Shown here in pieces: positions 3,505 to 25,133 of a stretch of 28,700 nt of DNA. The position numbers were made by a program, and so were the translations under genes. Origin of the DNA: a virus; the IMG/VR virus record IMGVR_UViG_3300044949_000415, positions 1-28,700 of that record; one strand, 5' to 3'. Under the pieces are notes generated by a model that saw nothing but the letters and a program-made list of their open reading frames with translations, was not told the origin of the DNA and did no database searches. The stretch's first letter is position 1. Each line of letters starts with the position of its first letter.

Positions 3505-3878
3505 TGGACTGGAAGCGTTGGATTGGGCTGCCACATGAGTTTGGCGCCGATCCTGATGATGGCGTCGCGGCTGACTGCCTGGTGATGGTGTGGCGCATTC
3601 TTGATGATGCCGGCATTTATCACCCGCCGATGGATACACAGTGGCTACAGCTTGCTGAGCAGAAGCGTTGGCCAGAACTGGAGCAGTTATGGCGTGATGG
3701 CACCGTTGAACTTGATGGCCCGCAACAGCACGCCGTAACGATGATCCGCAATGGCCCAGCAGGCCTTGGCGTCAGTATCGTTGTAGATGATGGGCTTTTG
3801 TTGGTGCATCACAGACGTGGCGTCCGATGGGTGCCGCTGTCGTATATGCCAAGTCTTCGCTTTTACACGTTTCGCTGA
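3504..3878 (+). CDS. K-like tail-tip protein of the NlpC/P60 type
   Basis: A 124-residue protein in the position of lambda gene K. The N-terminal part has the Cys motif of NlpC/P60 (C40) peptidases, VAADCLVMVWRIL, with candidate nucleophile Cys25. The C-terminal part has GLGVSIVVDDGLLLVHHRRG, corresponding to the family HVGI...H region: His102/His103 are present, but the usual first catalytic His appears to be Leu88. It may therefore be a weakened or purely structural member, or the alignment by eye may be off. Such tip peptidases trim peptidoglycan during entry. Start ATG overlaps the upstream TAA (TAATG) and its TGA overlaps the next ATG (TGATG), indicating coupled translation. Confidence 0.65.
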   Translation: MDWKRWIGLPHEFGADPDDGVAADCLVMVWRILDDAGIYHPPMDTQWLQLAEQKRWPELEQLWRDGTVELDGPQQHAVTMIRNGPAGLGVSIVVDDGLLLVHHRRGVRWVPLSYMPSLRFYTFR

Positions 3879-6800
3879 TGCTGCCTTCTGATCGCTACCT
3901 CGCAAGCCTGCTGGGTCTGACAGACGAGCAGTACCTGTACTTCAAGGCTGAAGTGGCGCGACATGCCAAGGAGCAGCCAGAGCCGGCGGTAATTGCAGGC
4001 GTTGAAACGATCATCGCCATCACGCTTAGCGTGATTGGCATTGGCTTTCAAGTTGCCGCCAGCTTCTTAAAACCAAGCGTTCCACAGCAGCAAGGCGGCC
4101 GTCCTGCGCAGTTGCAGGCACGCAACCGCAGCGATGCGCCGATCACCAACAACCAGCGATATACGCCGCGCTACGGCTTCGACAGCACGCAGGACATCAC
4201 CACACTGGGCAGCACCATCCCACTGGTGTATGCGCTGCGTGAGGCCATCAGCGGCACAACCTATGGCGGCGTGCGCGTAAGCACCCCGATGCTGTGGAGT
4301 CAGATCTACAGCCTCGGCGGCAGCCAGCTGCTGCGTGCCATCTTCATGATCGGCGAGGGTCCGATCGGCGGCATTGATGCCAAAAACTTTGCGGCTGGCG
4401 GCAACACGCTGGCTAGCTACGACTTTGGCAACAGCACAGCCAACAGCGCCGGCAGCAGACTCACTGTTTACGGTCGCGTGGGTAGTGGCCTAACCACACG
4501 CATTGCATCCGGTGATCGGATCTTCGGCCGTGCCGCTAACGCCGATGCGGGCAACGCGCAAAACGCAGGCGGATCTGATGTGTTCATGGTGCGCCGTGGC
4601 AGCAGTTGGGCAGCGGACTTCTGCAGCGCCACCAGGCCAAGCAACCAAACGATTTTCGGCGTCTACACGCTGATCGGCAACGATTTCGGGTTTAAGGTCA
4701 ACCCGGTGATCAGGCCAAAGGTACAAGCACAGTTGGTGCCTGAAGGCGAAGATGGCGATGCGCAGGTGAAGTGCAAGATCGACGATGTTGCGTGGGCGCA
4801 ACGTAAGAAGGCGCAGACCTACTTCAGCAGCCGTAGCGGACTGGTGAGCGGCAGCGTCGGCAGCGTCGGCAGCACGATCACATACAAGCTATATCCCAGC
4901 AGCGACAAGGACACGGAGTTCAGCCGCGATCTACGCACGCTGACCAACACAGCAGCATGGAGCGTCAGTAAAGAACAGATTACAAAAGAAGGCGCTGCTG
5001 GTTACAACAAACCAGCAAGTCAAGACAGCCGCGCAAAGTGGGTTTACGAATACGACGATGAATCAGTTTCAGATCTAAAAAGCCGACTGAGTGCAACTGT
5101 CAACAGCGTAACAATCGACTCCGAAGGCATTGGCACGTTAAACGCCACTTTTACTTTTGATACAACTGGACTTGGCGTTTACGACGACAGCGATAATATC
5201 GACACCGATATTGAAGTGCTAAAAGCAAGCAAGTTCCGCGTTACCTTCACCAACCCTGCCATCACGGACGACGACGACGAGGCGGTCTGCAAGTACACCG
5301 TCAAGATCAGGGTCCGCACAAAAGCAACTCAAAAAATTAAACGTGCAACATTGAGCAATGTCAGCCTCAGTACAACTACAGCAGTCGTAGATGGTGTCAC
5401 TGTTGTGACTAGCGTTAGCGCTAGCGGCGGCGGAGGTGACATTGATATTGATGCGGTAAACAATAATCAACCGCCAGTCTTCAGAATTCAAGACGGCACC
5501 AGCGTAACTGGCAATGGCACTATCACTGTCACCAAAAACCTAAAGTTTGACGCCACGCAAATTCATATCGAAAAGTGCGCAGATGTAGCCGGCACCGTTG
5601 CAGGCCGCCAGAAGACATGGGACGACGCGATCATCCCAGGCGAGCTTTACAAGGTCGGCTCAGCACTTGCAATCTGCACTAGCCGCACCGATGACGTGTT
5701 TGTCTCAGAAGCCGATATATCTAGCGGCAGCGGCACTGAAATCACTGCGGTGTTTACGACTGTGCGCACTGGATCAGTCACGCTCAATACGCAAGCCAAC
5801 ATTGAACGCGATGGCGATGACTACCTAGCGGGCAGTTACGAACTGCGCAATGTCGCCACAGCGCCCGATGGCCATATCTTGCGTTGTGCCATTGCAAGCG
5901 TCTCCACCACTCGCCCATGCCAAGCAGTTGAGTTTGGTATCCGCTCGCGCATTGGCATTCGTATCAACGGATTCTGCAATCTCAAGGATTCGATCAGCTT
6001 TACCCAAGCCGATGATCGTGCCTGCCTTAGCCGCAAAAACGACATCATCGAGCGCGGCTCCACGCTAAAGGTGGATGTGTTCCAAAGCAACACGATCACA
6101 ACTACAGAGGAGCGTTACAGCTTTTTCAAGATCGGCTACCGCGAGGCCGGCAACGGCGGTGCGTTCACAATCCTGAGCAACACTTACGGCATCCGTGGCG
6201 CCACTCAGCAAAACGTTTTCAACTATGTGCAGTTGAACATGCCATCGCTAAAGCAGTGGGAGTTCAACATTGAGCCGCTATCCGGTTTTGAGGTGCGCGC
6301 AGGCACTGGCATCAACACGCTCTACGTGCTTGATGCACGACTGAGCACCCGGCAGGTAGTGACTGATGGCTCGGTCACTGTTGCTTTCAATGGTGAATCA
6401 GTGCCGCGCACAGCCGAGCAGTTTGCTATTGCTGCAGTACGCGGTGAAGGCAAAGGCATCCCCGAGCTGGATCCAAGCAATTACGGCAGCGCAACAGATC
6501 GCAGTTACCTCGACACATGGGGCAAGCTTGCGGAAGCCTTCGTCTACGAAGAGGCCCAAAGCAGCGCCGGCAGTGGACCTGAACACGAGGTGGTGTACAT
6601 CAACGAGATCGTGCCGAATGCCACGGCACCGGTCTATGACGATCTCGCCCTAGTCGGCATCAACGTGATGAGTTCGGTTGAATGGCAGCAGTTCGGGCAG
6701 TTCAGTTGCTACGTGACAGGCGGTAAGACCTGTCGGCGACTGCGGAACAGCCTTGCGGTTGGCGCCACGCACCTGTTCCCGGATGTACTGCTGGATCTGA

Positions 6801-7771
6801 TGACCAATGCCACCTATGGCGCTGGCGATCTGATCACCGATGAGATGATCGACCTTGACGCCTTTGAGACGGCAGCGGATTGGTGCTACGACCGCAAATA
6901 CTTCTTTGATGGCGTGCAGGCCGATCGCGTCAACCTTCGTCAGTGGGCAGCAGACACTGCAGCCGCTCATCTGCTGGTGTTTGGCGAGAGCGACGGCAAG
7001 TTCTATTTGCGTCCGGCCCTGCAGTTCACGGCAGTGCCTATCAAGGGTTTGTTCACTGCTGGCAATATCGTCGAAGGCAGCTTCAAGCTGCAATACCTTG
7101 AGCCTGAGGAGCGCGAGCCAATCCAAGTCAGTGTGCGCTACCGCGAAGAGCGCGCCAGTACTGATCTAACCAATCCCGGCATTTTCCCAACTGAGCGCGA
7201 GGTGCTGGTGCGTGAGGCGATCGGCACCGCAACCGATCCAGTTGAGTCGCTCGATCTCAGCGATTACGTCACCAGCCGCGCGCACGCGATTGATGCCGCC
7301 AAGTTCATTGTCCGGATGCGCCGCATTCCAACGCACGCAATCAGCTTCCGCACAACACATGAAGGCGCACTAGCCAAGCTTGGGCCTAGCGACTACATCC
7401 GCGTGGCAATGGATGAGACGCAATATGACGAATTCAACAATGGCGTCGTCACCGCTGATGGCGCACTGGTCAGTACCAAGCCTCTGGCCGATGGCGCCTA
7501 CAACGTGATTGCCTGGGATGGCACAGAAGGCGCACCACCAGCCGATGCAACGCTGACCGTAAGCGGCGGCGGCACCGTAGCCACTCCGGTTGGAGTGGTG
7601 TTCACCGTCAAGTTGCCCAGCACGCAGGTGCGTACCTACCAGATCGAGCGGATTACGCCAGACGAAGAAGGCACGTTTAACATTGAAGCAGTTCACATGC
7701 CAACCAACGCCTCGGGTGTTCTGGAGCTGGCAAACGGCTTTGATACCGCCGGCAACTGGGTGATTGAGTGA
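3878..7771 (+). CDS. Central tail-tip / host-specificity protein (J-like)
   Basis: A 1297-residue protein, the largest in the window, of the lambda gpJ type that forms the tail tip and contacts the receptor. I chose ATG 3878 because it overlaps the TGA of the K-like gene; a longer reading from 3827 would intrude 52 bases into that gene. The N-terminus includes a hydrophobic, glycine-containing segment (VIAGVETIIAITLSVIGIGF, about 38-57) resembling the gpI-type domain, suggesting an I-J fusion. The middle carries beta-rich, possibly fibronectin/Ig-like regions. The C-terminal third has the J-type pattern DLMTNATYGAG, MIDLDAFETAADWCYDRKYF and DGKFYLRP. A small tandem repeat encodes GSVGSVGS near 4851-4872. 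It lies in an uninterrupted series of overlapping tail genes. Confidence 0.9.
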   Translation: MLPSDRYLASLLGLTDEQYLYFKAEVARHAKEQPEPAVIAGVETIIAITLSVIGIGFQVAASFLKPSVPQQQGGRPAQLQARNRSDAPITNNQRYTPRYGFDSTQDITTLGSTIPLVYALREAISGTTYGGVRVSTPMLWSQIYSLGGSQLLRAIFMIGEGPIGGIDAKNFAAGGNTLASYDFGNSTANSAGSRLTVYGRVGSGLTTRIASGDRIFGRAANADAGNAQNAGGSDVFMVRRGSSWAADFCSATRPSNQTIFGVYTLIGNDFGFKVNPVIRPKVQAQLVPEGEDGDAQVKCKIDDVAWAQRKKAQTYFSSRSGLVSGSVGSVGSTITYKLYPSSDKDTEFSRDLRTLTNTAAWSVSKEQITKEGAAGYNKPASQDSRAKWVYEYDDESVSDLKSRLSATVNSVTIDSEGIGTLNATFTFDTTGLGVYDDSDNIDTDIEVLKASKFRVTFTNPAITDDDDEAVCKYTVKIRVRTKATQKIKRATLSNVSLSTTTAVVDGVTVVTSVSASGGGGDIDIDAVNNNQPPVFRIQDGTSVTGNGTITVTKNLKFDATQIHIEKCADVAGTVAGRQKTWDDAIIPGELYKVGSALAICTSRTDDVFVSEADISSGSGTEITAVFTTVRTGSVTLNTQANIERDGDDYLAGSYELRNVATAPDGHILRCAIASVSTTRPCQAVEFGIRSRIGIRINGFCNLKDSISFTQADDRACLSRKNDIIERGSTLKVDVFQSNTITTTEERYSFFKIGYREAGNGGAFTILSNTYGIRGATQQNVFNYVQLNMPSLKQWEFNIEPLSGFEVRAGTGINTLYVLDARLSTRQVVTDGSVTVAFNGESVPRTAEQFAIAAVRGEGKGIPELDPSNYGSATDRSYLDTWGKLAEAFVYEEAQSSAGSGPEHEVVYINEIVPNATAPVYDDLALVGINVMSSVEWQQFGQFSCYVTGGKTCRRLRNSLAVGATHLFPDVLLDLMTNATYGAGDLITDEMIDLDAFETAADWCYDRKYFFDGVQADRVNLRQWAADTAAAHLLVFGESDGKFYLRPALQFTAVPIKGLFTAGNIVEGSFKLQYLEPEEREPIQVSVRYREERASTDLTNPGIFPTEREVLVREAIGTATDPVESLDLSDYVTSRAHAIDAAKFIVRMRRIPTHAISFRTTHEGALAKLGPSDYIRVAMDETQYDEFNNGVVTADGALVSTKPLADGAYNVIAWDGTEGAPPADATLTVSGGGTVATPVGVVFTVKLPSTQVRTYQIERITPDEEGTFNIEAVHMPTNASGVLELANGFDTAGNWVIE

Positions 7772-8175
7772 TGGCAGTCGCATTTCCAAGCATCACGCCA
7801 ACCAGCCGCAGCTTTACGGCACCGCGATGGCCGACAAGCGGCATCACGTCACAATCTGGCGTCACAACACGCAGGCTGTGGGGCAGCCGCCCATCGCAAG
7901 CGCAGCTCAGCCTTGGTTTTGACAACATCACCGACGACAATGCGGCCGCTATTGCGCAGGCATACAACTCAGCCAAAGGTGCCACAACTGATCTGACGCT
8001 GCCCGCGGCATTGTTCAATGGCGCATCCTCTACGCTGACAACATGGCTTGACGGCAGCGCAACCGGCGCAGGGCTGAAGTGGTTTTTCGCTGAAGAGCCG
8101 TTAAGCATTGAAAGCTCGGGCAGCCCTGGGCGCAGTAATGTGCGTGTGGCGCTGGTGGCTGAGCTTAGACTGTAG
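7771..8175 (+). CDS. Minor tail protein, possibly M-like
   Basis: A 134-residue protein whose ATG overlaps the J-like stop (TGATG); an in-frame GTG one codon earlier is possible. It is beta-rich, with the layout seen in lambda gpM-type tip proteins: an N-terminal strand with an Arg-rich hairpin (SGVTTRRLWGSRPSQAQLSL), a helix after DNITDDNAAAIAQAYNSA, and a C-terminal KWFFAEEPLSIES segment followed by a beta-strand (VRVALVAELRL). The M position between tape measure and L-like gene is empty here, so a relocated M is a reasonable but uncertain reading. It is certainly part of the tip gene block, judged by tight spacing on both sides. Confidence 0.5.
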   Translation: MAVAFPSITPTSRSFTAPRWPTSGITSQSGVTTRRLWGSRPSQAQLSLGFDNITDDNAAAIAQAYNSAKGATTDLTLPAALFNGASSTLTTWLDGSATGAGLKWFFAEEPLSIESSGSPGRSNVRVALVAELRL

Positions 8176-8177
8176 TT

Positions 8178-8555
8178 ATGGCATACACAGGCGCTAACGG
8201 CAGCTTCACCATTAACGGGTACACCGGAGTGGTGCGCAACGCGACGGTGGACATCTCGCGTGATGCACTTGAGACCACGAACCTTGGTAATTACAGTCGC
8301 ACATATACGCCTGGCCTGATTGGAGCAACAGGTAATGCGACGTTCATCTACGAAGTCGAAATCAAAAGCAATTTGATTGCAAATGTGCTGAACACCGCTA
8401 GCTCGCGTGAGACGCCGATTGCAGTGACATTAACTGTTGGCACAGGGCAAACACTGGCCGGAAGCGTGTTCATCACACAAGTCGGCACGTCCGTCTCTGT
8501 CGGCGACGTGACCAGCACCAATGTGGCATTCCAGTTCACTGGCGCGCCTAGCTAG
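8178..8555 (+). CDS. Tail-tube-fold protein downstream of the tip gene
   Basis: A 125-residue protein starting 3 bases after the previous stop. The sequence has the pattern of phage tail tube monomers: VRNATVDISRDALETTNLGN followed by a loop and LIGATGNATFIYE, then alternating strands ending in VTSTNVAFQFTGAPS. The DALETTNLG hairpin is the characteristic D..TT.LG segment that builds the inner tube ring. Because the major tube gene lies at the window start, this second tube-like gene after the J-like gene probably adds a ring to the tip or baseplate, or is a duplicate that has taken another role. Assigned by motif reading only. Confidence 0.6.
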   Translation: MAYTGANGSFTINGYTGVVRNATVDISRDALETTNLGNYSRTYTPGLIGATGNATFIYEVEIKSNLIANVLNTASSRETPIAVTLTVGTGQTLAGSVFITQVGTSVSVGDVTSTNVAFQFTGAPS

Positions 8556-8557
8556 CC

Positions 8558-9697
8558 ATGGCAGTTCTTGGTACTAACGGCAAAATCGTTTTAAGCCGCT
8601 CGGCGCCATCGCCAGTTGCGGTAAACGTTACTGCGCTGAACCAAGACAAAAACATCATTTCGTTGACAACGCCAGGATTCCGCAGTGGCGATCTTGTCGA
8701 GGTTGCGAGCACAAATAATTGGCCAAACGCAAATCTGTACAGCGATCCGCTGATTCCAAGCTACGCCAATATCTTTGACTATCAAGACTATGCCGAGATG
8801 GTCGGTTACGGCACGGCATACCCTGCCGGACTGTTGCGCCCATTTCGTTGGTTATCGACTGAAAATAACGATGTACTGACAACAGAAGACGGCAATGTGT
8901 TTGCCGTGCAGTCGGACGTAGATATCACTCCGTACCGCAATCGGCTGTACGTACACGTTGACCAGCTCAATCGACTGTCGTTTTATCGCACGCGAGCAGC
9001 AGCGCTGGCTGGCGCTAATGACGTGACGCGAGAAGACATTGATCAATCCGACTTTGCATTAGATCCTTCTGGTCAAATTGAATTGCGCCTTGTCAATGAA
9101 TGGAAGCTAGAGGCTTGCCTGCAAAGCTGGAGTCTGAACCTTAACGCCAGCGAGATTGACACAACCGGATTGGGTGATCAATTCTTTGATGGCGTTAAGT
9201 CGCTGGTGCAAGGTGGCGGTACGTTTGATTTCTTTATTGAGCGCGAGGAAAGCGACACTCGAAACACCGCAATCATCAGTCGCAGCGAATACGCCAATGC
9301 CTATGTGTTTTTTGGCGTTGAAGAAAACATTACTTACAACGATGCTGCAGTGAGTGGCAGCAGCGCCGGAACAACTGCCTACAACAACGCCGCAGTAACG
9401 CCGGCTCCTGCCGCCTTCACTCTTGATGCAACTGCATTAGCCACGCTTGGCACAAGCAACATGCTGCGCTTGCTGCTGAACACTAACGAGCAAGCGGAGG
9501 CGGAGGCTGAGTTTTGGATGATTGACGGAGATGCGCAAGACCGCACTAGCTATACCGGAATGCTGCTGCCTGGCGACCTGTACTACAAAGCGCAGATTAT
9601 GCTGACGAGTAGCGCTGTCAGTGTTCGCGCCACGGATGTGATTATTGGTTCGGCAAACTTTGTGACCGTGCGCGAGGTGCAGTTGCGCGAAGGCTAG
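8558..9697 (+). CDS. Large tail protein with C-terminal tube-like domain
   Basis: A 379-residue protein 2 bases after the preceding gene. Residues about 186-230 read QSWSLNLNASEIDTTGLGD then FFDGVKSLVQGGGTFDFFI, the same EIDTTGLGD hairpin found in tube proteins. The last 80 residues resemble the visible C-terminus of the tail tube gene at 1-263 in length and strand pattern (FWMIDGDAQ against FKLYTDKQG; both end in paired beta-strands). Residues 1-180 form a different, aromatic-rich N-terminal domain of unknown function (YDYQDYAEMVGYG-like stretches near 73-90). Likely a tail-tip or side component. Base composition is somewhat more AT-rich than the J-like gene. Specific role unknown. Confidence 0.6.
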   Translation: MAVLGTNGKIVLSRSAPSPVAVNVTALNQDKNIISLTTPGFRSGDLVEVASTNNWPNANLYSDPLIPSYANIFDYQDYAEMVGYGTAYPAGLLRPFRWLSTENNDVLTTEDGNVFAVQSDVDITPYRNRLYVHVDQLNRLSFYRTRAAALAGANDVTREDIDQSDFALDPSGQIELRLVNEWKLEACLQSWSLNLNASEIDTTGLGDQFFDGVKSLVQGGGTFDFFIEREESDTRNTAIISRSEYANAYVFFGVEENITYNDAAVSGSSAGTTAYNNAAVTPAPAAFTLDATALATLGTSNMLRLLLNTNEQAEAEAEFWMIDGDAQDRTSYTGMLLPGDLYYKAQIMLTSSAVSVRATDVIIGSANFVTVREVQLREG

Positions 9698-9723
9698 ACT
9701 GTTACCTATAAGGGATCGTTGCC

Positions 9724-11754
9724 ATGACCTATAAAATCACCCACAAAAACAGCACAGTTGCTGGGACACCACCTGTAGCGGGCGATATTGATGTGGGCGA
9801 AATTGCTATTAACGCAGCAGATGCTGAGCTTTACACCAAGGACACAGCTGGCAATATCCGCAAATTTCAAAACACCACGACTGGCACCGCTGCTGGCGTG
9901 CGATTTACTCAAGCCGGTACTGGTGCTGTGCAGCGCACCGTTGAATCAAAGCTGCAAGATGCGGTGAGCGTCAAAGACTTCGGAGCGGTTGGAAATGGAG
10001 TCTCTGATGATACGGCAGCCATCCAAGCCGCTATTGACAGTTTAACTACTACTGGCGGTGTTATTTTTTTTCCAAAAGGTACATACCTTGTCTCTAGAAG
10101 CATCGGAACCAATGATCGTTGGGGGATTAAGATTACAGGCAGTAACATTACGTTGATGGGACAAGGTGCTTGCTCTAAGCTGCGGCGCTTCAACACAAAC
10201 ATCAGCACTTATGCACTGTCGTATCCCATTGTATTTATTGGAACACCTGATAGTAATGTAGCGGCAGCAACTGAGAACGTAACTATTCGAGATCTACAGT
10301 TTATTGGTGAAAATACACAACATGCTGTTACTGGAAACGTAGTTCATGATTTTAGGAATGCTATAGAAGTCAAAAATACGAAAAATTTGACCATCGAAAA
10401 CAATGTATTTACTGCTATTGATTCAGCAGTTGTATACTACCAAAAACCAGTCGAGTATGATTACGTCAACAGTCAGACGTATAATACGACCAAGAACTAC
10501 AACACTAAGTTCATCAATAATAGTTGTATCGCATCCTCGCACGCTATTGTTGGGCGTGCTCTTATCCACGCTGTTGTTTGGTCGGGTGTGGACTTTTGCA
10601 AGGTATCTGGTAACTATTTTGAATGGTGCGATGATTGCGTTGCAGGTGAAGGAACATTTACTCTTCCTACTCAAATTGAATCCGATACTTGGACTTCAAC
10701 TATCGGAACTGTTAAGCGGTGTGGGCGTAGATGGGAATTTACCAATAATTGTGCATACAACTCATCGGAGCACGCAGTTTACGCAGCAGGTCTAGATGTG
10801 GACATTAGTAATAACTATTTCTACACAGATGCGCCGAGTATTTGTGCGTATGATGTTGTGAAACTACGTGCTCGCAACGTGCAAGTTGCATCTAATGTGT
10901 TTGCTAACTATGCCCTTGCGATTGCGGTTGATGTTCCTTCCTTTAGTGTCAACATTATAGGCAATACTATTTATACAAGGGAAACTATATCTGCGCTGAC
11001 TGGAGCAGCTGTAATAGCTGTGGATAGTAATGGACTGGAAAATTACTATCCACCTCGTGCCTGGTTTAATACTGCGGATACGATGAGGAACATTAGTGTC
11101 ACTGGAAACACAATACAATTTCCTCCAGATCCAGCTTCGTCTGGTTTATATCAGATTGCTTTTCGTATCTACACTAGTTCGTCTAGTTCCTTGTTTCCAT
11201 ATGAACAAGAAAACATTAAGTTTTGTGATAACGCAGTATCAGGTCATAAAATCGGCGCGTATGTTATTAATGAATTGGCCCGTAACATAAACATCAGCGA
11301 TAACAGTTTTAGTGGAAAATCATTCATTGAAACTAGTTTTAGTGGGTCAACTGTTATTCCAACTGATGCTGCATTGATGATTTATTCTACCAGCACCTTT
11401 GTTGGGTCTGAAATTAAATTCAACAATAATGAGGTTCGAGGTTCATCTTACCTCTTTACCACTAATTCTGGTTCTGGTTTAAATGTACTGACTCCTAGAA
11501 TGTCGACAGGAAATAAACTTACTTATATTAAAAACTTTAAAACTTCGGATATGAGCATTGGCGGACTTTGGTCATTTAGAAATAATGTGGGATTGTACTT
11601 CCTTGATCGAACCACTTGGTTCCCGGAGGGTCTTAATAACTCACTTAATAATGGCATCAGCTCGACTACAGCATTAAAGTCTATGACAGACTATGATGGA
11701 ACTAATGTAAGATTTTATCCTAATGATTCTGGCACTCCAATTATTTTAGGATAG
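9724..11754 (+). CDS. Tailspike with pectate-lyase-type beta-helix
   Basis: A 676-residue receptor-binding spike. A good ribosome site (TAAGGGA, 9709-9715) precedes the ATG by 8 bases. Residues 1-50 hold the N-terminal motif common in cyanophage fibres (DVGEIAINAADAELYTKD), which probably docks to the virion. Residues about 82-125 read SVKDFGAVGNGVSDDTAAIQ, the classical entrance to a pectate lyase 3-type right-handed beta-helix; Asn/Gly-rich coils (NNSCIASS, NNYFYTD, GNTIYT, DNSFSG) then recur to about residue 620. Such spikes bind, and often cut, surface polysaccharide. From about 10030 on, the DNA becomes much more AT-rich than its neighbours (19 G/C in bases 11521-11580 by hand count), suggesting the distal receptor part was acquired from elsewhere. 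Confidence 0.88.
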   Translation: MTYKITHKNSTVAGTPPVAGDIDVGEIAINAADAELYTKDTAGNIRKFQNTTTGTAAGVRFTQAGTGAVQRTVESKLQDAVSVKDFGAVGNGVSDDTAAIQAAIDSLTTTGGVIFFPKGTYLVSRSIGTNDRWGIKITGSNITLMGQGACSKLRRFNTNISTYALSYPIVFIGTPDSNVAAATENVTIRDLQFIGENTQHAVTGNVVHDFRNAIEVKNTKNLTIENNVFTAIDSAVVYYQKPVEYDYVNSQTYNTTKNYNTKFINNSCIASSHAIVGRALIHAVVWSGVDFCKVSGNYFEWCDDCVAGEGTFTLPTQIESDTWTSTIGTVKRCGRRWEFTNNCAYNSSEHAVYAAGLDVDISNNYFYTDAPSICAYDVVKLRARNVQVASNVFANYALAIAVDVPSFSVNIIGNTIYTRETISALTGAAVIAVDSNGLENYYPPRAWFNTADTMRNISVTGNTIQFPPDPASSGLYQIAFRIYTSSSSSLFPYEQENIKFCDNAVSGHKIGAYVINELARNINISDNSFSGKSFIETSFSGSTVIPTDAALMIYSTSTFVGSEIKFNNNEVRGSSYLFTTNSGSGLNVLTPRMSTGNKLTYIKNFKTSDMSIGGLWSFRNNVGLYFLDRTTWFPEGLNNSLNNGISSTTALKSMTDYDGTNVRFYPNDSGTPIILG

Positions 11755-11759
11755 TAAAC

Positions 11760-11786
11760 ACCTAGGATTACCATGCTGACCTAGGT
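11760..11786 (+). repeat. Inverted repeat after tailspike gene
   Basis: ACCTAGG (11760-11766) and CCTAGGT (11780-11786) can pair to a 7-bp stem with a 13-base loop, 5 bases after the tailspike stop. There is no strong T-tract directly after it (AAAGGTTTTATC). CCTAGG is itself palindromic, so a protein binding site is an alternative. A second, imperfect stem (GCGTG 11806-11810 with CACGC 11823-11827) follows in the same 124-base gap. No other feature was found between 11755 and 11878. Confidence 0.4.
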
Positions 11787-11878
11787 AAAGGTTTTATCAA
11801 AACTGGCGTGGTCCCGCGACGGCACGCTCACTAAGTGCTAACATTTAATCACAACAGATATAAGGATGGTGGGCGGTT

Positions 11879-13060
11879 ATGGCCAGCGTCAAAATCTCCG
11901 AATTAACTGCGCTCACTACTCCCGCCGCAGCCGATGAACTGGCGGTGGTTGATGTCAGCGCCAACAGCACCAAAAAGATCACGGTCGGAGAAGTAGTCGG
12001 CATTATCAACGGCGATGTAGAGGTCGCCAACGATGGCACTGCATCGATCAGCGAGCTGCCGGTCAGCAAACTGCAGGATGGTGCTGCCCGCCAGCTCATT
12101 CAGACCGATGCTGCCGGCACTGGCGTTGAGTGGACCAGTAACATTGATATCCCTGGCACTCTTGATGTTACTGGCGCCAGCACACTCGACTCGACACTGA
12201 GTGTTGCTGGCGTTGCGACATTCGCTGCCGGCAGCGCTGGATCTCCATCACTGACCTTCACCGGGGACGCAAATTCTGGGGTCTACTCGCCAGGAGCCGA
12301 TCAGGTCTCTGTAGCAACTGGCGGATCTGAGCGACTGCGAATTGATGCAGCTGGCCAGATCGAAGCAGTCACGCTGGGTAGTGCTGCAGCTCCAACCTAT
12401 AGCTGGATTGGCGACCCAAATTCTGGAGTGTTTAGCCCCGCCGCTGATACTTGGGCTGTATCCACAGGTGGCAGTGAGCGCATTCGTGTTGACTCCAGTG
12501 GCCGCTTGGGGCTGGGCACCACAAGCCCTGTTGGACTGCTTGATGTGCGCGGAGAAATCAAAGCAGGCAGCTTTGACTCTATTAATGGTACAACGTTATT
12601 AAGTGATTCATATGCCACTGGAGGAGCATCTTTCGGATCTCTTTGTATTGAAAGAGGCACGGGAGTATTTGCTTTAACTACCAATATCAAGCATGCAGAG
12701 AATGCGGCTGGCTATATATCTACTAATACAGTTGATTTTGGCAAATCTGCATTAAAACTTGGTTCGACCGGATTGTTTTATGCTACTGCTTCTGCTTCGG
12801 TGGTGCCGATAGGTAATTCGGTTTCTTTGACCGATAAATTTGTAATCACCAATGCAGGCAACGTGTTAATTGGCACGTCCTCGGACTCTGGTGGCGCACT
12901 CCTACAGGTAAACGGAGATCGAGTCAGGATTGCCACGGCAAAAACACCTGCATCGGCTACCGATACTGGCGTAGCTGGCGAGATATGCTGGGATGCTAAT
13001 TACGTCTATGTCTGCACTGCCACAAACACATGGAAGCGGACGGCTATTGCTACTTGGTAA
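11879..13060 (+). CDS. Tail fibre protein with internal 43-residue repeats
   Basis: A 393-residue protein with an SD-like TAAGGATGG (11861-11869) upstream of ATG 11879. The N-terminus (ASVKISELTALTTPAAADE then LAVVDVSANSTKKITVGEV) is the usual opening of cyanophage fibre proteins. Two repeats of about 43 residues (118-160 and 167-209) contain GDANSGVYSPGAD...GGSERLRID and GDPNSGVFSPAAD...GGSERIRVD, the second leading into SSGRLGLGTTSP, a phrase typical of phage fibre shafts. The C-terminus (GEICWDANYVYVCTATNTW) is a common fibre tip ending. It probably forms trimeric beta-rich shafts near the spike. There is no chaperone-type autocleavage domain at the C-terminus. Confidence 0.85.
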   Translation: MASVKISELTALTTPAAADELAVVDVSANSTKKITVGEVVGIINGDVEVANDGTASISELPVSKLQDGAARQLIQTDAAGTGVEWTSNIDIPGTLDVTGASTLDSTLSVAGVATFAAGSAGSPSLTFTGDANSGVYSPGADQVSVATGGSERLRIDAAGQIEAVTLGSAAAPTYSWIGDPNSGVFSPAADTWAVSTGGSERIRVDSSGRLGLGTTSPVGLLDVRGEIKAGSFDSINGTTLLSDSYATGGASFGSLCIERGTGVFALTTNIKHAENAAGYISTNTVDFGKSALKLGSTGLFYATASASVVPIGNSVSLTDKFVITNAGNVLIGTSSDSGGALLQVNGDRVRIATAKTPASATDTGVAGEICWDANYVYVCTATNTWKRTAIATW

Positions 13061-16497: not shown

Positions 16498-17424
16498 TTA
16501 CACATTCCCGCTAGGCAGACCCTCCAAACGTTCCCGACTTTCTGTATTGTTGGCGCCAAGTGGGGTGCCTGCCAGCGGGTTGCCTATCAGCATACGAAGG
16601 CGGCTGATGCCACGCCTTTGTATTTCGCACATGCGCGCACGTGATAGGCCCATGCGCTTTTCTAGGTCATTCCATGGCACTGGATTGCGACTGTTGCGTG
16701 CATAGATGATTTCACGTGTGCGATCATCTAAATGTTCATCGCAATAGTCGCGCACCGTTTCAAGCTGCCAATCGTATTCAACGTCGTACTGTCTTTGATC
16801 GGCAATGATGTCAAGAATATTAGATGATTCATCTTGCGCAGGTTTATCAAGGCTTGTGACCCGATACGACTGTTGCAATGTGTCAGATATCACCTTAGGG
16901 GTCACATCAAGCACTGCGGCAAGCTCCGCCATGGTTGCTGTGCGTCCGTGCTCTTGCGCAAATGCCTGCGCTGTCTTGTTGAGCTTGATCAGCATTTCAT
17001 GCACGCCAAGCGGCAGCCTGATGATTGGGTCGTATTGAATCAATGCACGCCCGATGGATTGGCGAATCCACCAGTAGGCGTAGGTGCTGAACTTGTAGCC
17101 GCGGGTGTAGTCAAACAGCTCAACAGCGCGCGCAAGACCGATGTTGCCCTCCTGGATCAGATCCAGCATGTCAAGCGTTTGCGTGTTGCGCCTGCTGTAC
17201 TTGCGTGCAACATGCACTACAAGCTGCAGGTTGGATTGCATGAACTTTTGCCGCGCGCGCTCACCGCTGCGTAGTTCACGGCGTTCTTGTGTCGTTAAAG
17301 GTCTTTCAAGATCCTTTAATTCTCTCCACTTTGAAACTCGGCGGCCAAGTTGTATCTCTTGTTGCGGTGTGAGTAATGGATACCGCGCGATACTGTTTAA
17401 GTAGTCGCCAATAGCGTCAGACAT
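16498..17424 (-). CDS. Sigma-70 family factor (group 2, cyanobacterial type)
   Basis: 308 residues from ATG 17424, preferred over an upstream start because conserved region 1.2 (IGDYLNSIARYPLLTPQQE) begins just after it. Region 2 spans about 58-131 with NLQLVVHVARKYSRR, LDLIQEGNIGLARAVELFD and TYAYWWIRQSIGRAL (-10 recognition and melting). Region 3 is about 135-210 (IIRLPLGVHEMLIKLN, SLDKPAQDE). Region 4 is about 222-282, with the -35 helix GLSRARMCEIQRRGISRLR. It lacks the long region 1.1 of primary factors. It is the last gene of the minus-strand early operon and faces the late genes end to end. A phage-borne full sigma would redirect host RNA polymerase, plausibly to late promoters. Confidence 0.93.
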   Translation of the reverse strand: MSDAIGDYLNSIARYPLLTPQQEIQLGRRVSKWRELKDLERPLTTQERRELRSGERARQKFMQSNLQLVVHVARKYSRRNTQTLDMLDLIQEGNIGLARAVELFDYTRGYKFSTYAYWWIRQSIGRALIQYDPIIRLPLGVHEMLIKLNKTAQAFAQEHGRTATMAELAAVLDVTPKVISDTLQQSYRVTSLDKPAQDESSNILDIIADQRQYDVEYDWQLETVRDYCDEHLDDRTREIIYARNSRNPVPWNDLEKRMGLSRARMCEIQRRGISRLRMLIGNPLAGTPLGANNTESRERLEGLPSGNV

Positions 17425-17446
17425 GGAGAATCCGTTAGTACATACA

Positions 17447-17683
17447 ATGGAAGCACAATTCCACGGTGCTGCCAATGCTGCGCAGCTACGTGCGTTACAT
17501 GCTGCAGCAGATTGGGGCGGACTGCTGGAATATGCGCTGCTGCTAGCCGAGCAAGAAGCAAGCCAGCGGTCTCAAATCCACTGGCTTGCGCAAGAAGCGT
17601 CGGCAGCGTTGCGGACTGGTCTAGAGCAGTGGCACCTAGATGCCGCTGAGGAACTGCTTCGAGGCCGTCGTCGTGATGTCTGA
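17447..17683 (+). CDS. Small helical protein, antiparallel between sigma and dcd genes
   Basis: A 78-residue reading on the opposite strand to its neighbours: ATG 17447 (an in-frame ATG at 17423 would add 8 residues). It starts 22 bases from the divergent sigma start and overlaps the dCTP deaminase 3' end by 48 bases. The sequence is protein-like and helical (AADWGGLLEYALLLAEQEAS, HWLAQEASAALRTGLEQWHL, DAAEELLRGRRRD). The opposite-strand reading in this gap is low-complexity and less convincing. No family recognised. If real, its promoter would lie in the sigma gene and could influence it. Confidence 0.5.
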   Translation: MEAQFHGAANAAQLRALHAAADWGGLLEYALLLAEQEASQRSQIHWLAQEASAALRTGLEQWHLDAAEELLRGRRRDV

Positions 17684-18166
17684 GTTGTAATGGCCTGTGA
17701 CGCTGTAGCTGGTCACCGGCTGCTGGCTCATGCGGAAGAACACCATCTGCCCGATCTTTAAGCCAGGCCAAAGCGGCAGCGGCAGGATCTGGCGTGAGTT
17801 CTTCAGCTCCAAGGTGAGCACGCTGCCATGCCAGCCGGGATCGGCGTAACCGGCGTGCAGATTTTCGTAGCCTTCCCGTGCGCGGCTTGACTTGAGGAAA
17901 AACAGTCCGGCGATGTTCTCCGGCATGTTGAACACTTCAATCGTCTGCGCAAGGATGAACTGCCCAGGCTTCAGCTCGTAAGGATTCTCCGCTGTGCGTC
18001 CTGCAATGCTGAGCGGCCGCATGTTCAGGTTTTCGGCAGACTCGATCATGATCGTGTCACCAAGCCGTAGGTCAAGGCTGGCGGGATTGATCAATGCCTC
18101 GTCGCAGTTTGGCACCATGCCGTCGGTGCACAGCGCTTTGATCTCGTAGTCGCAGAGGATTGTCAT
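17636..18166 (-). CDS. dcd: dCTP deaminase
   Basis: 176 residues of the trimeric dUTPase/dCTP-deaminase fold: INPASLDLRLGD (25-37), the FLKSSRAREG motif (90-99), AGYADPGWHG (105-114) and LTLELKN with the catalytic Glu120, then GLKIGQMVFFRM. The Ser-Ser-Arg triplet and Glu fit deamination of dCTP to dUTP, which feeds dTTP synthesis. Within this operon it would raise the supply of thymidine precursors for phage DNA. A phage of a GC-rich host may gain by retuning the pools. A bifunctional (deaminase plus dUTPase) variant cannot be excluded by eye. Confidence 0.9.
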   Translation of the reverse strand: MTILCDYEIKALCTDGMVPNCDEALINPASLDLRLGDTIMIESAENLNMRPLSIAGRTAENPYELKPGQFILAQTIEVFNMPENIAGLFFLKSSRAREGYENLHAGYADPGWHGSVLTLELKNSRQILPLPLWPGLKIGQMVFFRMSQQPVTSYSVTGHYNSDITTTASKQFLSGI

Positions 18167-20147: not shown

Positions 20148-20357
20148 TCAGTTCAGTGGTGTAATGCCATTGGCTTCTTCAAAAGCCAAGACTTGTGCAA
20201 GGGGATAGCGGACACGTGGCGTGCCTGCTGGTAGGCCAATGCGTGGTGCAGTGACGTAAGCAGGACCAATACCACGCGCACGTTGGTTTTTAACGGCTGC
20301 TGGCTTCAAGCCCCAACGTGCTGCCAGCTCATCAGTAGTGAGGAATGGTTCAGTCAT
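20148..20357 (-). CDS. Small winged-helix/AlpA-like DNA-binding protein
   Basis: 69 residues. FLTTDELAARWGLKPAAVKN followed by QRARGIGPAYV and a beta-wing region ending RVRYPLAQVLAFEE is the layout of the HTH_17/MerR-like excisionase and AlpA family: HTH, wing, then the YPL..V..F helix. Such proteins act as excisionases, transcription activators or replication adaptors. Its ATG lies inside the 3' end of the bet gene (8-base overlap). An excisionase would imply a lysogenic phage, but the domain alone does not decide this. Confidence 0.75.
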   Translation of the reverse strand: MTEPFLTTDELAARWGLKPAAVKNQRARGIGPAYVTAPRIGLPAGTPRVRYPLAQVLAFEEANGITPLN

Positions 20358-21102
20358 CAGCGAAGGGATCCTCCGATGGCGTGTCGGATAGCACCGCTTC
20401 GCGCTCTACAGCAAGGCGCAGCAACTCATCGTTTTGCTCATCGCTGAGATCAGGCTTGCGCTTATCCATGCGCGCTACGACCTCCTGCAGCTTGTCCAGC
20501 GTGTCGGCCTTGGCAATCGCAGCCTTACCGGCTTGAAACAGCTTGGCGTCGCCTGCAGGTGCAGGTGCAGCGGTAACGGTCACCGGCTCCACCTCAGCCT
20601 GCTGCATCTCATCGGTGCTGTAGACACCGGACATGTCGGCAGGGAACGCCTTACGCAGTGCCAATGCCTCAGAGCATTTGGCGATCATTGCGGCACCCAT
20701 CTTGGACCACAAGCCTTGGCCGGCGTTGTAGTCAGCAAAGCGTGCGACGCCAACAAATGGATGCTGGCTGCCCTTGCGATGGATAATGGTCTTAGCGGCA
20801 GCAGGTGGCTTGCTGCCAAGCCATACGTCAGCCCATACGCCGTCTTCACCGCACCAGTAGGTTTCGCTGCCGTCAAGCTGACCGGTGCGCTCGGCAATAG
20901 CACGCAAGCCGTCGATGCCGGCTTGGATGGTCATCTTGCCGCCACGCTTGATGGCGTAGATCTGCTTGCTGAATGGGTCCAGCCCGGTGCGCTGGCAGGC
21001 GTAGGCAAACAGGCGCAACTCGTCATTGCTGCAACCAGGCGCAATGGTGGTCGAGATCAGCTGCGTTTGCTCTGGTGTCCAGAGCGTGATGCTAGAAGTC
21101 AT
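20350..21102 (-). CDS. bet: Bet/RecT-family single-strand annealing protein
   Basis: 250 residues. The N-terminus (DELRLFAYACQRTGLDPFSK, then QIYAIKRGGKMTIQAGIDGL, RAIAERTGQLDG) and centre (WSKMGAAMIAKCSEALALRKAFP, GVYSTDEM) are the signature of the lambda Bet/RecT annealing family. It pairs complementary single strands during recombination-dependent replication and repair. The C-terminal 60 residues (AAPAPAGDAKLFQAGKAAIA, KADTLDKLQEVVARMDKRK) form a linker and a small helical domain. It overlaps the exonuclease gene by 11 bases, so annealing protein and exonuclease are produced together. Confidence 0.93.
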   Translation of the reverse strand: MTSSITLWTPEQTQLISTTIAPGCSNDELRLFAYACQRTGLDPFSKQIYAIKRGGKMTIQAGIDGLRAIAERTGQLDGSETYWCGEDGVWADVWLGSKPPAAAKTIIHRKGSQHPFVGVARFADYNAGQGLWSKMGAAMIAKCSEALALRKAFPADMSGVYSTDEMQQAEVEPVTVTAAPAPAGDAKLFQAGKAAIAKADTLDKLQEVVARMDKRKPDLSDEQNDELLRLAVEREAVLSDTPSEDPFADD

Positions 21103-21883
21103 CGGATGTGATAGTTGGGTTGGCAGTTAATGCCCATGAAGGCAGGCTGAGCGCTTGGCACGTGTCGCCGTAGCCCGGCCACTCCTTGGTGGCTTGGCAG
21201 TCGGCAATCACGCGCATGTCACGTTGCCGTAGCTCATCACCAGCAGCCATGGCCGCGGCGTCAAGCTCATAGACCGCAACCGCGTACGGCGCAGTTTTCT
21301 CAACGGCAATGAACACAAACCGCTCAGCACCGTGCAAGCCGGCTAGGTAGTGGCTCGCTTGCACATGGTAGCGGAAGGTAGCCACACTACGGGCAAAGCC
21401 GGCAGGGCTGGCGTCCGTGGTGGTCTTGAGGTCAATCACCGTGGCACCGGCGTACCAGTCAGGGCGGCACTTGCAGCGCAGCCCGGTGGAGGCGTCATCC
21501 CACCAGAAGGACTGCTCAGCCTTGCCATGGGCAAGCAGTGCTGCTGCTGCAGGATGCACGCGGACGCTGGCAGCCATGGATAGCGCCAATGCCATGTCGG
21601 ATTGCGTGACCGCTTCAATGCCATCAGCAGCCATGCGCTCTGCTTGCTCCTTGCCGGCCTTGGTATTGCGTGGACCGCAGACGCCATAGCGGCCCGCTAG
21701 CTCACTGGGCTCAAGCACTGCGCAATGCACCAGTGAGCCAAGCCGCATGGCAGCAGTCGGCTCGGGTGCGCTGCGCTTGGGGTCGAGGTAGCGGCTCCAG
21801 TAGTGGTAGGGCGACTTAGCCACTGCGTGCAGGTGACTGGCGCTGACGGCTGGGTCGGCGTGGTAGTCGGCATTGCTGGTCAT
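21092..21883 (-). CDS. RecE-like exonuclease (PD-(D/E)XK)
   Basis: 263 residues of the RecE/exodeoxyribonuclease VIII-like family. It opens YHADPAVSASHLHAVAKSPY, then RLGSLVHCAVLEP with His53; the catalytic core is KCRPDWYAGATVIDLKTT, with Asp142, Asp151 and Lys153 forming the D-(D)-x-K site, followed by RYHVQASHYLAGL. It would digest one strand of linear duplexes to load the Bet partner. Unlike E. coli RecE it consists only of the nuclease domain. ATG 21883 overlaps the preceding gene by 4 bases. Confidence 0.9.
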   Translation of the reverse strand: MTSNADYHADPAVSASHLHAVAKSPYHYWSRYLDPKRSAPEPTAAMRLGSLVHCAVLEPSELAGRYGVCGPRNTKAGKEQAERMAADGIEAVTQSDMALALSMAASVRVHPAAAALLAHGKAEQSFWWDDASTGLRCKCRPDWYAGATVIDLKTTTDASPAGFARSVATFRYHVQASHYLAGLHGAERFVFIAVEKTAPYAVAVYELDAAAMAAGDELRQRDMRVIADCQATKEWPGYGDTCQALSLPSWALTANPTITSDDF

Positions 21884-23777: not shown

Positions 23778-25133
23778 TCATCCGCCATAACGCTTCGCCA
23801 GTCTGGCCTGATAGACCCTCTCGGCCCATCCGCGCTTGTAGCCGCGTTGCTGCGCTAGCTGGCGTAGGGCTTCTAGGTCGCGAGCTGAGGACTGCTCGCG
23901 CCGCTTAGCCACTGCCATCTCCACCAACTCACCATCCACCTGTTGCAACTCGCGGCGTTCCTGTGGCGCAAACACATGGCCGCACTCGCGGCACACCTGC
24001 GCAGCACTGGCGCTGGTGGCAAAGCACTGCGGGCACACCTTGACCGATGGCGCCGCCTCGCGGTCGCGCTTGCGGATGCCATCCAGCGACCACTCCCGCG
24101 GCTCCAGATGGTGACCAAGCCGCAGAGTGTTGCCGACATGGTCGAGCACTACGGCGCGCTTGCCGGGTTGCGGCCGCAGGGAGCGACCGATCATCTGCAG
24201 ATGCAGCGCCACTGATGCCGTAGGCCGCAGCAGGATGCAGCCGCCGACGCTTGGCACGTCAACGCCTTCACCGATCAATGCGCAGGATGTCAGCACTTTG
24301 AGCTTGCCGGTGCCCAAGTCCTGCAGCAACTGCCGACGCTGCCCAGCATCCATGCTGCCGTCGATACTGGCCGCGGCGATGCCTGCTGACTGGAATAACG
24401 CAGCCACTGCCTCCGCGTGCGCCACGGAGCAGCAAAACGCAATCGCGGTCTGGCCTGGCAGGTGTTTGCGGTAGTGACCAAGGCAGTCGCCCATGATCGT
24501 GCCAACGCGTTGCTCAGCCTCCTTAGTGTCAAAGTCACCCATCCGTTTGCGCAACCCGGTGGAGTCAAAACCCGGCGGCGCCAGCACCTTGGCAGCGGCG
24601 AGGAATCCGGCATCTGTGAGCTGCTGCGCTGTTGGTCCTTGCACCATGGATTGGTAGTGCTCGCCTAGGCCTCGGCCATCCGAGCGGATCGGTGTTGCCG
24701 TCACACCCAGCAACTTGGCGGCTGCAAAGTGCTGAACCGTCTTGGCCCACGTGCCAGCCGTGGTGTGGTGCGCCTCATCGACCACTAGAAGCTGGAAGAA
24801 ATCACGCGGCAGCAGATGCAACCGGCGGGCAACGGTTTGTACGCTGGCGATCTGCACGGCATGGCTGAGATCCATGCTGCGGCCAGCACTGATGCGGCCA
24901 TGCGCTACGCCCATACTGCGCAAGCTGCGGCTTGCTTGGTCAAGCAGTTCAGCCCTGTGAACAAGGATTAAAACCCTGTTTCCCTTAATGCTTGCTTGTT
25001 GAGCGATGTAGCTGAAAATGTAAGTCTTACCGCCACCAGTGCTGAGCACGGCAAGAACCGATTTGCGGCCTAACTGATACTGGCCGCGTATTTCATTAAC
25101 TAACTGCTGTTGATAAGGGCGAAGTTGTATCAC
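23778..25133 (-). CDS. SF2 (DEAD/DEAH) helicase with zinc ribbon
   Basis: 451 residues. Helicase motifs in order: Walker A STGGGKT (31-37), VHRAELL (Ia), DEAH (119-122), VTATPIR (144-150), LTSCALIGEGVD (V) and QMIGRSLRP (VI, 313-321). A zinc ribbon follows (Cys367, Cys370, Cys381, Cys384 in CPQC and CREC), then a basic helical tail. The enzyme uses ATP to move on DNA, as expected of phage replication or recombination helicases. It overlaps the helicase-methyltransferase gene by 4 bases and is followed by the nuclease. Confidence 0.93.
   Translation of the reverse strand: MIQLRPYQQQLVNEIRGQYQLGRKSVLAVLSTGGGKTYIFSYIAQQASIKGNRVLILVHRAELLDQASRSLRSMGVAHGRISAGRSMDLSHAVQIASVQTVARRLHLLPRDFFQLLVVDEAHHTTAGTWAKTVQHFAAAKLLGVTATPIRSDGRGLGEHYQSMVQGPTAQQLTDAGFLAAAKVLAPPGFDSTGLRKRMGDFDTKEAEQRVGTIMGDCLGHYRKHLPGQTAIAFCCSVAHAEAVAALFQSAGIAAASIDGSMDAGQRRQLLQDLGTGKLKVLTSCALIGEGVDVPSVGGCILLRPTASVALHLQMIGRSLRPQPGKRAVVLDHVGNTLRLGHHLEPREWSLDGIRKRDREAAPSVKVCPQCFATSASAAQVCRECGHVFAPQERRELQQVDGELVEMAVAKRREQSSARDLEALRQLAQQRGYKRGWAERVYQARLAKRYGG

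Follow-up and report, generated by a model that had tools for sequence, protein, structure and literature searches.

Domain shuffling of phage tailspikes is well documented, according to the available part of PMC10684548. In coliphages, conserved DNA motifs lie beside the receptor-binding domain of the tailspike, and the modules cross morphotypes (PMC10408124). The available part of that report covers six lytic phage genera and 20 proteins with a mean identity of 63%, and describes motif presence as uncorrelated with the number of recombination events (PMC10408124). The locus studied here differs from what is described there in its carriers, which are Synechococcus-type siphoviruses, podoviruses and an S-EIV1-like phage, in the near identity of a shared stretch of 46-49 bp, and in that synonymous sites were also tested against a neighbouring control. 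The receptor-binding domain of the Pam1 tailspike (7eea) is likewise a cyanophage right-handed beta-helix. It matches the fold predicted for the module described below with a Z score of 27.4 over 426 residues, at a sequence identity of 17%. The tail genes of the cyanosiphoviruses S-CBS3 and S-LBS1 are far from those of the window (the whole stretch of DNA analysed, positions 1 to 28,700 of the virus record IMGVR_UViG_3300044949_000415) apart from weak matches to the J-like tail protein, and S-CBS3 has no annotated tailspike gene. In an adhesin of other phages, several short conserved motifs within the gene reportedly serve as crossover points for the receptor part, whereas a single seam between linker and cap is found here. 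The tail fibre gene of S-LBS1 has a particularly low GC content (PMC6157547, available part). Seam-like motifs beside receptor domains are thus known from other phages, and the evidence at the present locus is unusually sharp. A literature search found no report of such a seam in cyanophages, which does not in itself prove its absence.

The gene considered here encodes a beta-helix tailspike of a siphovirus that probably infects Synechococcus; its receptor module was swapped, probably at a homologous-recombination seam shared among Synechococcus phages. A swap of the receptor domain had been proposed in the sequence-only reading of this DNA, and it is supported by separate searches, in which the two parts of the protein have different nearest relatives. 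The features are collected in the table below. The tailspike scores 72.8 bits against the pectate-lyase-like profile PF12708 (cut-off 27). Its first 55 residues are presumed, from their position, to dock on the virion. The linker is far more widespread: 63 of the best 80 relatives (of at least 423 found with residues 1-102) match only from residue 30 onward. The cap shows protein-level likeness to glucanases and C5-epimerases of known structure.

Coordinates of the tailspike gene, its parts and related features in the window
Feature	Coordinates	Strand	Basis
J-like tail protein, backbone marker	3827-7771	+	PHROG 27845 and 31; 77 loci returned with relatives
Tailspike gene, 676 aa	9724-11754	+	Intact in-frame ORF; PHROG tail spike 2234, E 2.5e-18; Pfam PF12708 at residues 81-240, E 4.4e-20
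Residues 1-55, backbone-specific N-terminal part, presumed virion docking	9724-9888	+	Conserved with same-backbone phages
Residues 56-84, linker (FTQAGTGAVQRTVESKLQD.VSVK), present in many phages	9889-9975	+	At least 423 relatives of residues 1-102
DNA island of 46-49 bp, exchange seam	9913-9961	+	Exact-match scan, 22-mer spelling, fourfold sites
Exchanged receptor module (cap and right-handed beta-helix)	9962-11754	+	Backbone not found in 15 loci with module relatives; AlphaFold2 model; beta-helix matches
Residues 85-104, beta-helix N-terminal cap	9976-10035	+	Protein conserved, DNA not: fourfold identity 27/83
AT-rich segment	10033-11802	+	Likelihood changepoints
EWCDD, residues 300-304, candidate active or sugar-binding site	10621-10635	+	W301 and D303 invariant in 12 aligned relatives; putative role
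SSEH, residues 347-350, candidate active or sugar-binding site	10762-10773	+	S348, E349 and H350 invariant in 12 aligned relatives; putative role
Interval probably holding the right-hand junction	11755-11793	+	DNA match resumes at 11793 in L121, 11774/11775 in L107/L108; 11879 in nine others
Next fibre gene (11879-13060): conserved N-terminal stretch, with a second variable part after it	11879-12200	+	13 siblings with blastn blocks ending at 12135-12210; exact match of 37 bp to L016
RecT-like single-strand annealing protein	20350-21102	-	PHROG 2780, E 4.6e-64
Exonuclease VIII-like protein	21092-21883	-	PHROG 412, E 2.8e-90

The two halves of the spike lead to different phages. The best 10 of at least 423 relatives of residues 1-102 are 80-92% identical, and all carry window-type tail genes, i.e., the backbone from the J-like gene to gene 8558. 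Residues 103-676 retrieved 15 loci at 41-70% identity, phages of other types included. The receptor part was absent from 26 window-type loci, four of which are cut inside the spike (L003, L101, L008, L106). Some contigs are counted twice among these 26, as several locus ids denote one contig (L002=L119, L003=L101, L005=L124, L007=L100, L011=L116, with further cases), and L006 and L097 resemble the L124 phage. Conversely, none of the tape measure, J-like, 7768, 8178 and 8558 proteins was found in the 15 receptor loci, of which L082, L088 and L096 have less than 500 bp before the match, so that upstream genes could not be seen in them. Five of these loci also show a match to part of residues 1-102.

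The same picture is obtained at the DNA level. In the nine closest siblings, the DNA left of the spike module is 91-94% identical to the window. The five siblings with a J-like protein at least 97% identical (L119, L101, L124, L100, L098) give blastn blocks of 7.7-10 kb at 91-94%, ending at 10034-10038. Of 18 siblings, 13 lose the left match at 10031-10038, and the other five lose it sooner (L009 at 10025, L008 and L010 at 9998, L103 at 9992, L116 at 9971). Right of the module, where PMC10408124 would place a downstream motif, similarity resumes in 15 siblings, most often at 11879 (nine siblings) and otherwise at 11774-11793 (three) or at 11876, 11880 or 11971 (one each). The endolysin gene is back at about 95-96% in the four closest siblings that reach it (L119, L116, L098, L121). 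No second contig with the exact junction of the window was found.

Many different modules follow the linker. Since tblastx clustering of the downstream regions joined almost everything, modules were clustered without the cap (E 1e-10, 40% coverage). From 75 spikes examined, those with at most 150 residues from the seam onward were left out, and the remaining 66 spikes with the linker fell into 48 receptor-module clusters; three contigs were entered twice (L119/L333, L108/L346, L146/L362). A looser clustering (E 1e-3) placed 20 window-type modules in 10 groups, one of which has eight members held together by weak partial matches, so not all of these modules are without kinship. One pair illustrates the exchange directly. 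L012, a siphovirus with window-type docking part, and L354, an S-EIV1-like phage whose capsid protein is 70% identical to an S-EIV1 protein, share one blastn match, which starts in the linker, reaches the stop codon and covers 1.85 kb at 81%; among the matches listed, the only further one found by tblastx lies elsewhere and has 32 residues at 47%. In L012 (2108-6308), the start of a fibre-type gene precedes the tailspike gene, reversed relative to the window. Taken together, the receptor part, which runs from about 9962 through the stop codon, differs in ancestry from the docking part and the rest of the tail. As expected of a modular protein, its N- and C-terminal parts have different nearest relatives, and the same C-terminal part sits on other anchors elsewhere.

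The joint itself was mapped at synonymous sites. The island is the only exact match of at least 18 bp between the whole window and L014, L015, L019 and L068. In the comparison with nine siblings, fourfold-site identity is 0.81-0.89 in gene 8558, 124/212 in the docking part, 74/86 in the island and 27/83 in the cap. The value for the docking part (0.58), compared with that of gene 8558, suggests that positions 9724-9888 may be exchanged too. The conserved spelling of the island is missing from two of the nine siblings, L004 (3/8 fourfold sites) and L008 (5/8), and swaps therefore occur without the island as well. The synonymous-site homology to close relatives ends at about 9962, which places the DNA joint there and means that the cap came with the module; residues 85-104 look conserved only because the protein is. 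The sequence-only reading had put the switch where the docking part ends and the beta-helix starts. The AT-rich onset does lie there, at about 10033, whereas the DNA joint is some 70 bp earlier, at the end of the island.

A search for the island peptide in any codons returned 56 contigs, near-copies of one phage included. They contain four spellings of the 22-mer at 9940-9961. Forty-six of the 56 are identical, and the rarer spellings each differ from the commonest by one base. For the seven codons of the 22-mer, the chance per independent draw is 3e-4 to 1e-3. In 99 pairs of contigs from different upstream and downstream groups, all of which involve L331, L352, L354 or L372, identity is 0.92 in the 24 bp left of the 22-mer and 0.76 in the 24 bp right of it. 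It is 0.32 at -60 to -30 and 0.42 at +60 to +120. Because these contigs were retrieved with the 22-mer or the peptide as query, the 22-mer cannot count as independent evidence in them, whereas its extension, the uniform spelling and the fourfold-site comparison can. Among 74 distinct protein-selected linkers from all phage kinds, island codons are shared only modestly more often than expected (e.g., 0.33 observed, 0.18 expected), which makes the island special to a subset of phages. Within that subset, the joint is a stretch of 46-49 bp whose synonymous sites barely vary, even though the phages are different on either side of it. The DNA at the anchor end is thus more conserved than its surroundings across unrelated phages. 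In isolate phage records, the island had no DNA match at E <= 1.

The turn to AT-rich DNA from about 10030, the basis of the original suspicion, was confirmed. GC drops from 0.52 to 0.39, the count of 19 G/C in the 60 positions 11521-11580 is correct, and the J-like gene, described as clearly above half, averages 33.7 of 60. Codons 1-102 have a GC of 0.516 and a GC3 of 0.461, and codons 103-676 have 0.393 and 0.324. When 8558-13060 was searched by likelihood for a single AT-rich segment, 10033-11802 was chosen with a log-likelihood gain of 36.1, compared with at most 13.7 in 60 block shuffles scanned in coarser steps. The left change falls at 10032 (2-log-unit range 9989-10228). None of 941 stretches of 1725 bp that do not overlap 10030-11754 has a GC below 0.501. 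Recoding the receptor protein with backbone codon usage gives an expected GC of 0.491 and GC3 of 0.601. Hence, the amino-acid make-up accounts for about 40-50% of the GC fall and does not account for GC3.

Composition alone is no proof of acquisition, let alone a recent one, because the module is AT-richer than the upstream DNA in 17 of 17 window-type spikes (mean -0.085), mostly with different modules. Two observations had been named in advance as speaking against a swap. The AT-rich state common to orthologues was found; the same nearest relatives for both parts were not. In 37 other seam contigs, nearly all podoviruses and still including near-copies of one another, the mean difference between module and upstream GC is -0.002, with the module lower in 24 (p 0.21). 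Modules below 600 bp, upstream regions below 1500 bp and six siphovirus-type seam contigs were left out of this comparison. There is some positive correlation between module GC and upstream GC (Spearman 0.46). In the receptor family, the module lies below the rest of the locus in 13 of 15 listed members, the list excluding the near-duplicates L084, L088, L094 and L095 and the partial L176. Relatives in GC-rich phages have a GC3 of up to 0.72-0.75. The pattern fits a module pool with a composition near that of podoviruses. The podovirus spike of L369 (7093-8793) is the opposite of the window, with a GC-rich module (0.562) and upstream DNA at 0.445.

Members of the receptor family sit on at least five different N-termini. 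In L083, the neighbouring genes encode portal, coat and head-closure proteins. Its coat protein shares 79% identity with a protein annotated as P22 coat, and the same coat family occurs in L091. A T7-like internal virion protein and fibre lie next to the spike in L093, and baseplate proteins in L092. An AlphaFold2 model of residues 85-676 (mean pLDDT 84) predicts a right-handed beta-helix, and the closest folds are AlgE epimerases and phage tailspikes (Z scores of 29.8 for AlgE6, 27.4 for Pam1, 25.7 for Sf6 and 24.7 for HK620). The module is probably sugar-recognising and polysaccharide-cleaving; judging from their conservation in the alignment, W301, D303, S348, E349 and H350 may act on the sugar. 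The receptor part alone had no match at E <= 0.1 among isolate phage proteins. In a search of genome contigs with a profile of the family alignment, the best 80 of at least 229 relatives were mainly matches to the cap, the longest covering residues 2-342 of 592 at 26%, so no prophage or bacterial donor was identified among them.

The window phage is a siphovirus that probably infects Synechococcus, as its helicase-methylase is 83% identical to that of S-CBS3. Among isolates, the J-like protein has only weak matches (25-29%), to S-CBS1, S-CBS3 and S-LBS1, that to S-CBS3 being 26% over a fifth of the protein. Gene 8558 has no isolate phage match at E 1e-5. The replication half (helicase-methylase, 25130-27388) and the tail half (3827-9697) may have different histories. 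Homologues of a dCTP deaminase (17636-18166) and a sigma factor (16498-17475) are also present. As for the carriers of the island, 54 of the 56 contigs match six references outside the spike gene, a count that cannot show other hosts because the references are five Synechococcus phages and the window only. The best reference is a Synechococcus podovirus for 46 contigs (DSL-LC07, S-SRP01 or S-CBP1; L370 and L381 match only at 38%), the window type for seven and S-EIV1 for one; two have no match. Among the protein-selected linker loci (best 80 of at least 423), a reference match outside the spike of at least 50% over 60 residues was seen in 9 of 9 with the seam and in 19 of 71 without it, eight of these 19 being window-type.

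The gene downstream of the spike is built in a similar way. The next fibre gene has about 85-110 conserved codons followed by a variable AT-rich part, and its last 60 codons are conserved in three siblings. L016 and the window share exact matches of 37 and 35 bp, and no other of at least 18 bp. These matches suggest a second, putative seam in the fibre gene.

Several other explanations can be weighed against a swap at the seam. The receptor part might have diverged in place under fast diversifying selection, without any exchange. Nearly all modules compared do start with a similar cap, and weak partial matches connect some window-type modules, yet a backbone at 91-94% DNA identity adjoins a part without detectable similarity, and relatives of the module are found on other N-termini and backbones. 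The likeness of L012 and L354 in the spike part only, together with L082-L096, already refutes this explanation, which is extremely improbable. It is also highly improbable that the linker peptide and codon bias alone force the identity of the island. The peptide is widely conserved, but many unrelated spellings would then be needed instead of four that lie one base from the commonest; 46 of 56 agree despite the low chance per draw, and the neighbouring cap is conserved in protein and not in DNA. Somewhat less remote, though quite unlikely, is an AT-richness that reflects only the amino-acid composition of a beta-helix. The module recoded with backbone codons is already below the backbone, and most listed family members are below the rest of their locus. 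The observed GC3 remains far below expectation, however, and relatives of the same family reach high GC3 in GC-rich phages.

A metagenome assembly chimera at the shared 46 bp would explain why the exact junction is known from a single contig. The gene is intact and in frame, though, the same architecture occurs with other modules in many contigs, and the backbone returns beyond the 1.7 kb module, so that two errors would be required; a chimera is very unlikely. Invertible tail-fibre systems switch at the border between a constant and a variable part, and the seam occupies just such a border. Little credence can nevertheless be given to a dedicated device, i.e., a diversity-generating retroelement or a site-specific recombinase. 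The window, a 28.7 kb fragment of the phage, holds no second copy of the seam, only one of all 12-mers of 9900-10040 recurring in it, and the seam RNA folds no better than shuffles (z 1.13). The same is true of the RNA at the 3' end, 11740-11830 (z -0.75). The most substantial alternative is illegitimate, non-homologous joining followed by selection for working proteins, with the island carried along or selected for another reason. L004 and L008 were swapped without the island spelling, no island is known at the right-hand junctions, and motifs and events are uncorrelated in the available part of PMC10408124. Against this stand the identical synonymous sites of the island between unrelated flanks on both sides, and we regard such joining as unlikely, albeit with a real minority chance.

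These data are best read as homologous recombination at the seam when Synechococcus cells are co-infected, and we infer the mechanism from the island and its carriers. Phages of different kinds would encounter each other in a shared cyanobacterial host, with the island as the site of recombination. Annealing recombination would probably help, as the window encodes homologues of RecT, with a presumed annealing activity, and of exonuclease VIII. The phage would thereby keep the fit of its virion and exchange the sugar-recognising, probably polysaccharide-cleaving part. The AT-richness of the module could then reflect both its amino-acid content and its origin in a common pool, whose composition lies near the 0.44 of the podovirus carriers. 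We lean slightly towards the wider proposal that the 46-bp coding seam is a common joint for Synechococcus siphoviruses, podoviruses and S-EIV1-like phages, through which at least about 48 modules circulate and whose uniformity is kept by recombination itself.

Receptor swapping is already well known; so precise a shared joint is noteworthy. The locus offers a natural case of receptor exchange in apparent cyanophages with closely mapped borders, and the seam DNA can serve as a probe for more Synechococcus-phage receptor modules in metagenomic data. Should the seam prove to be a genuine recombination joint, host range in these phages would evolve from a shared pool and not within lineages, and seam identity could mark which phages meet in the same cell.
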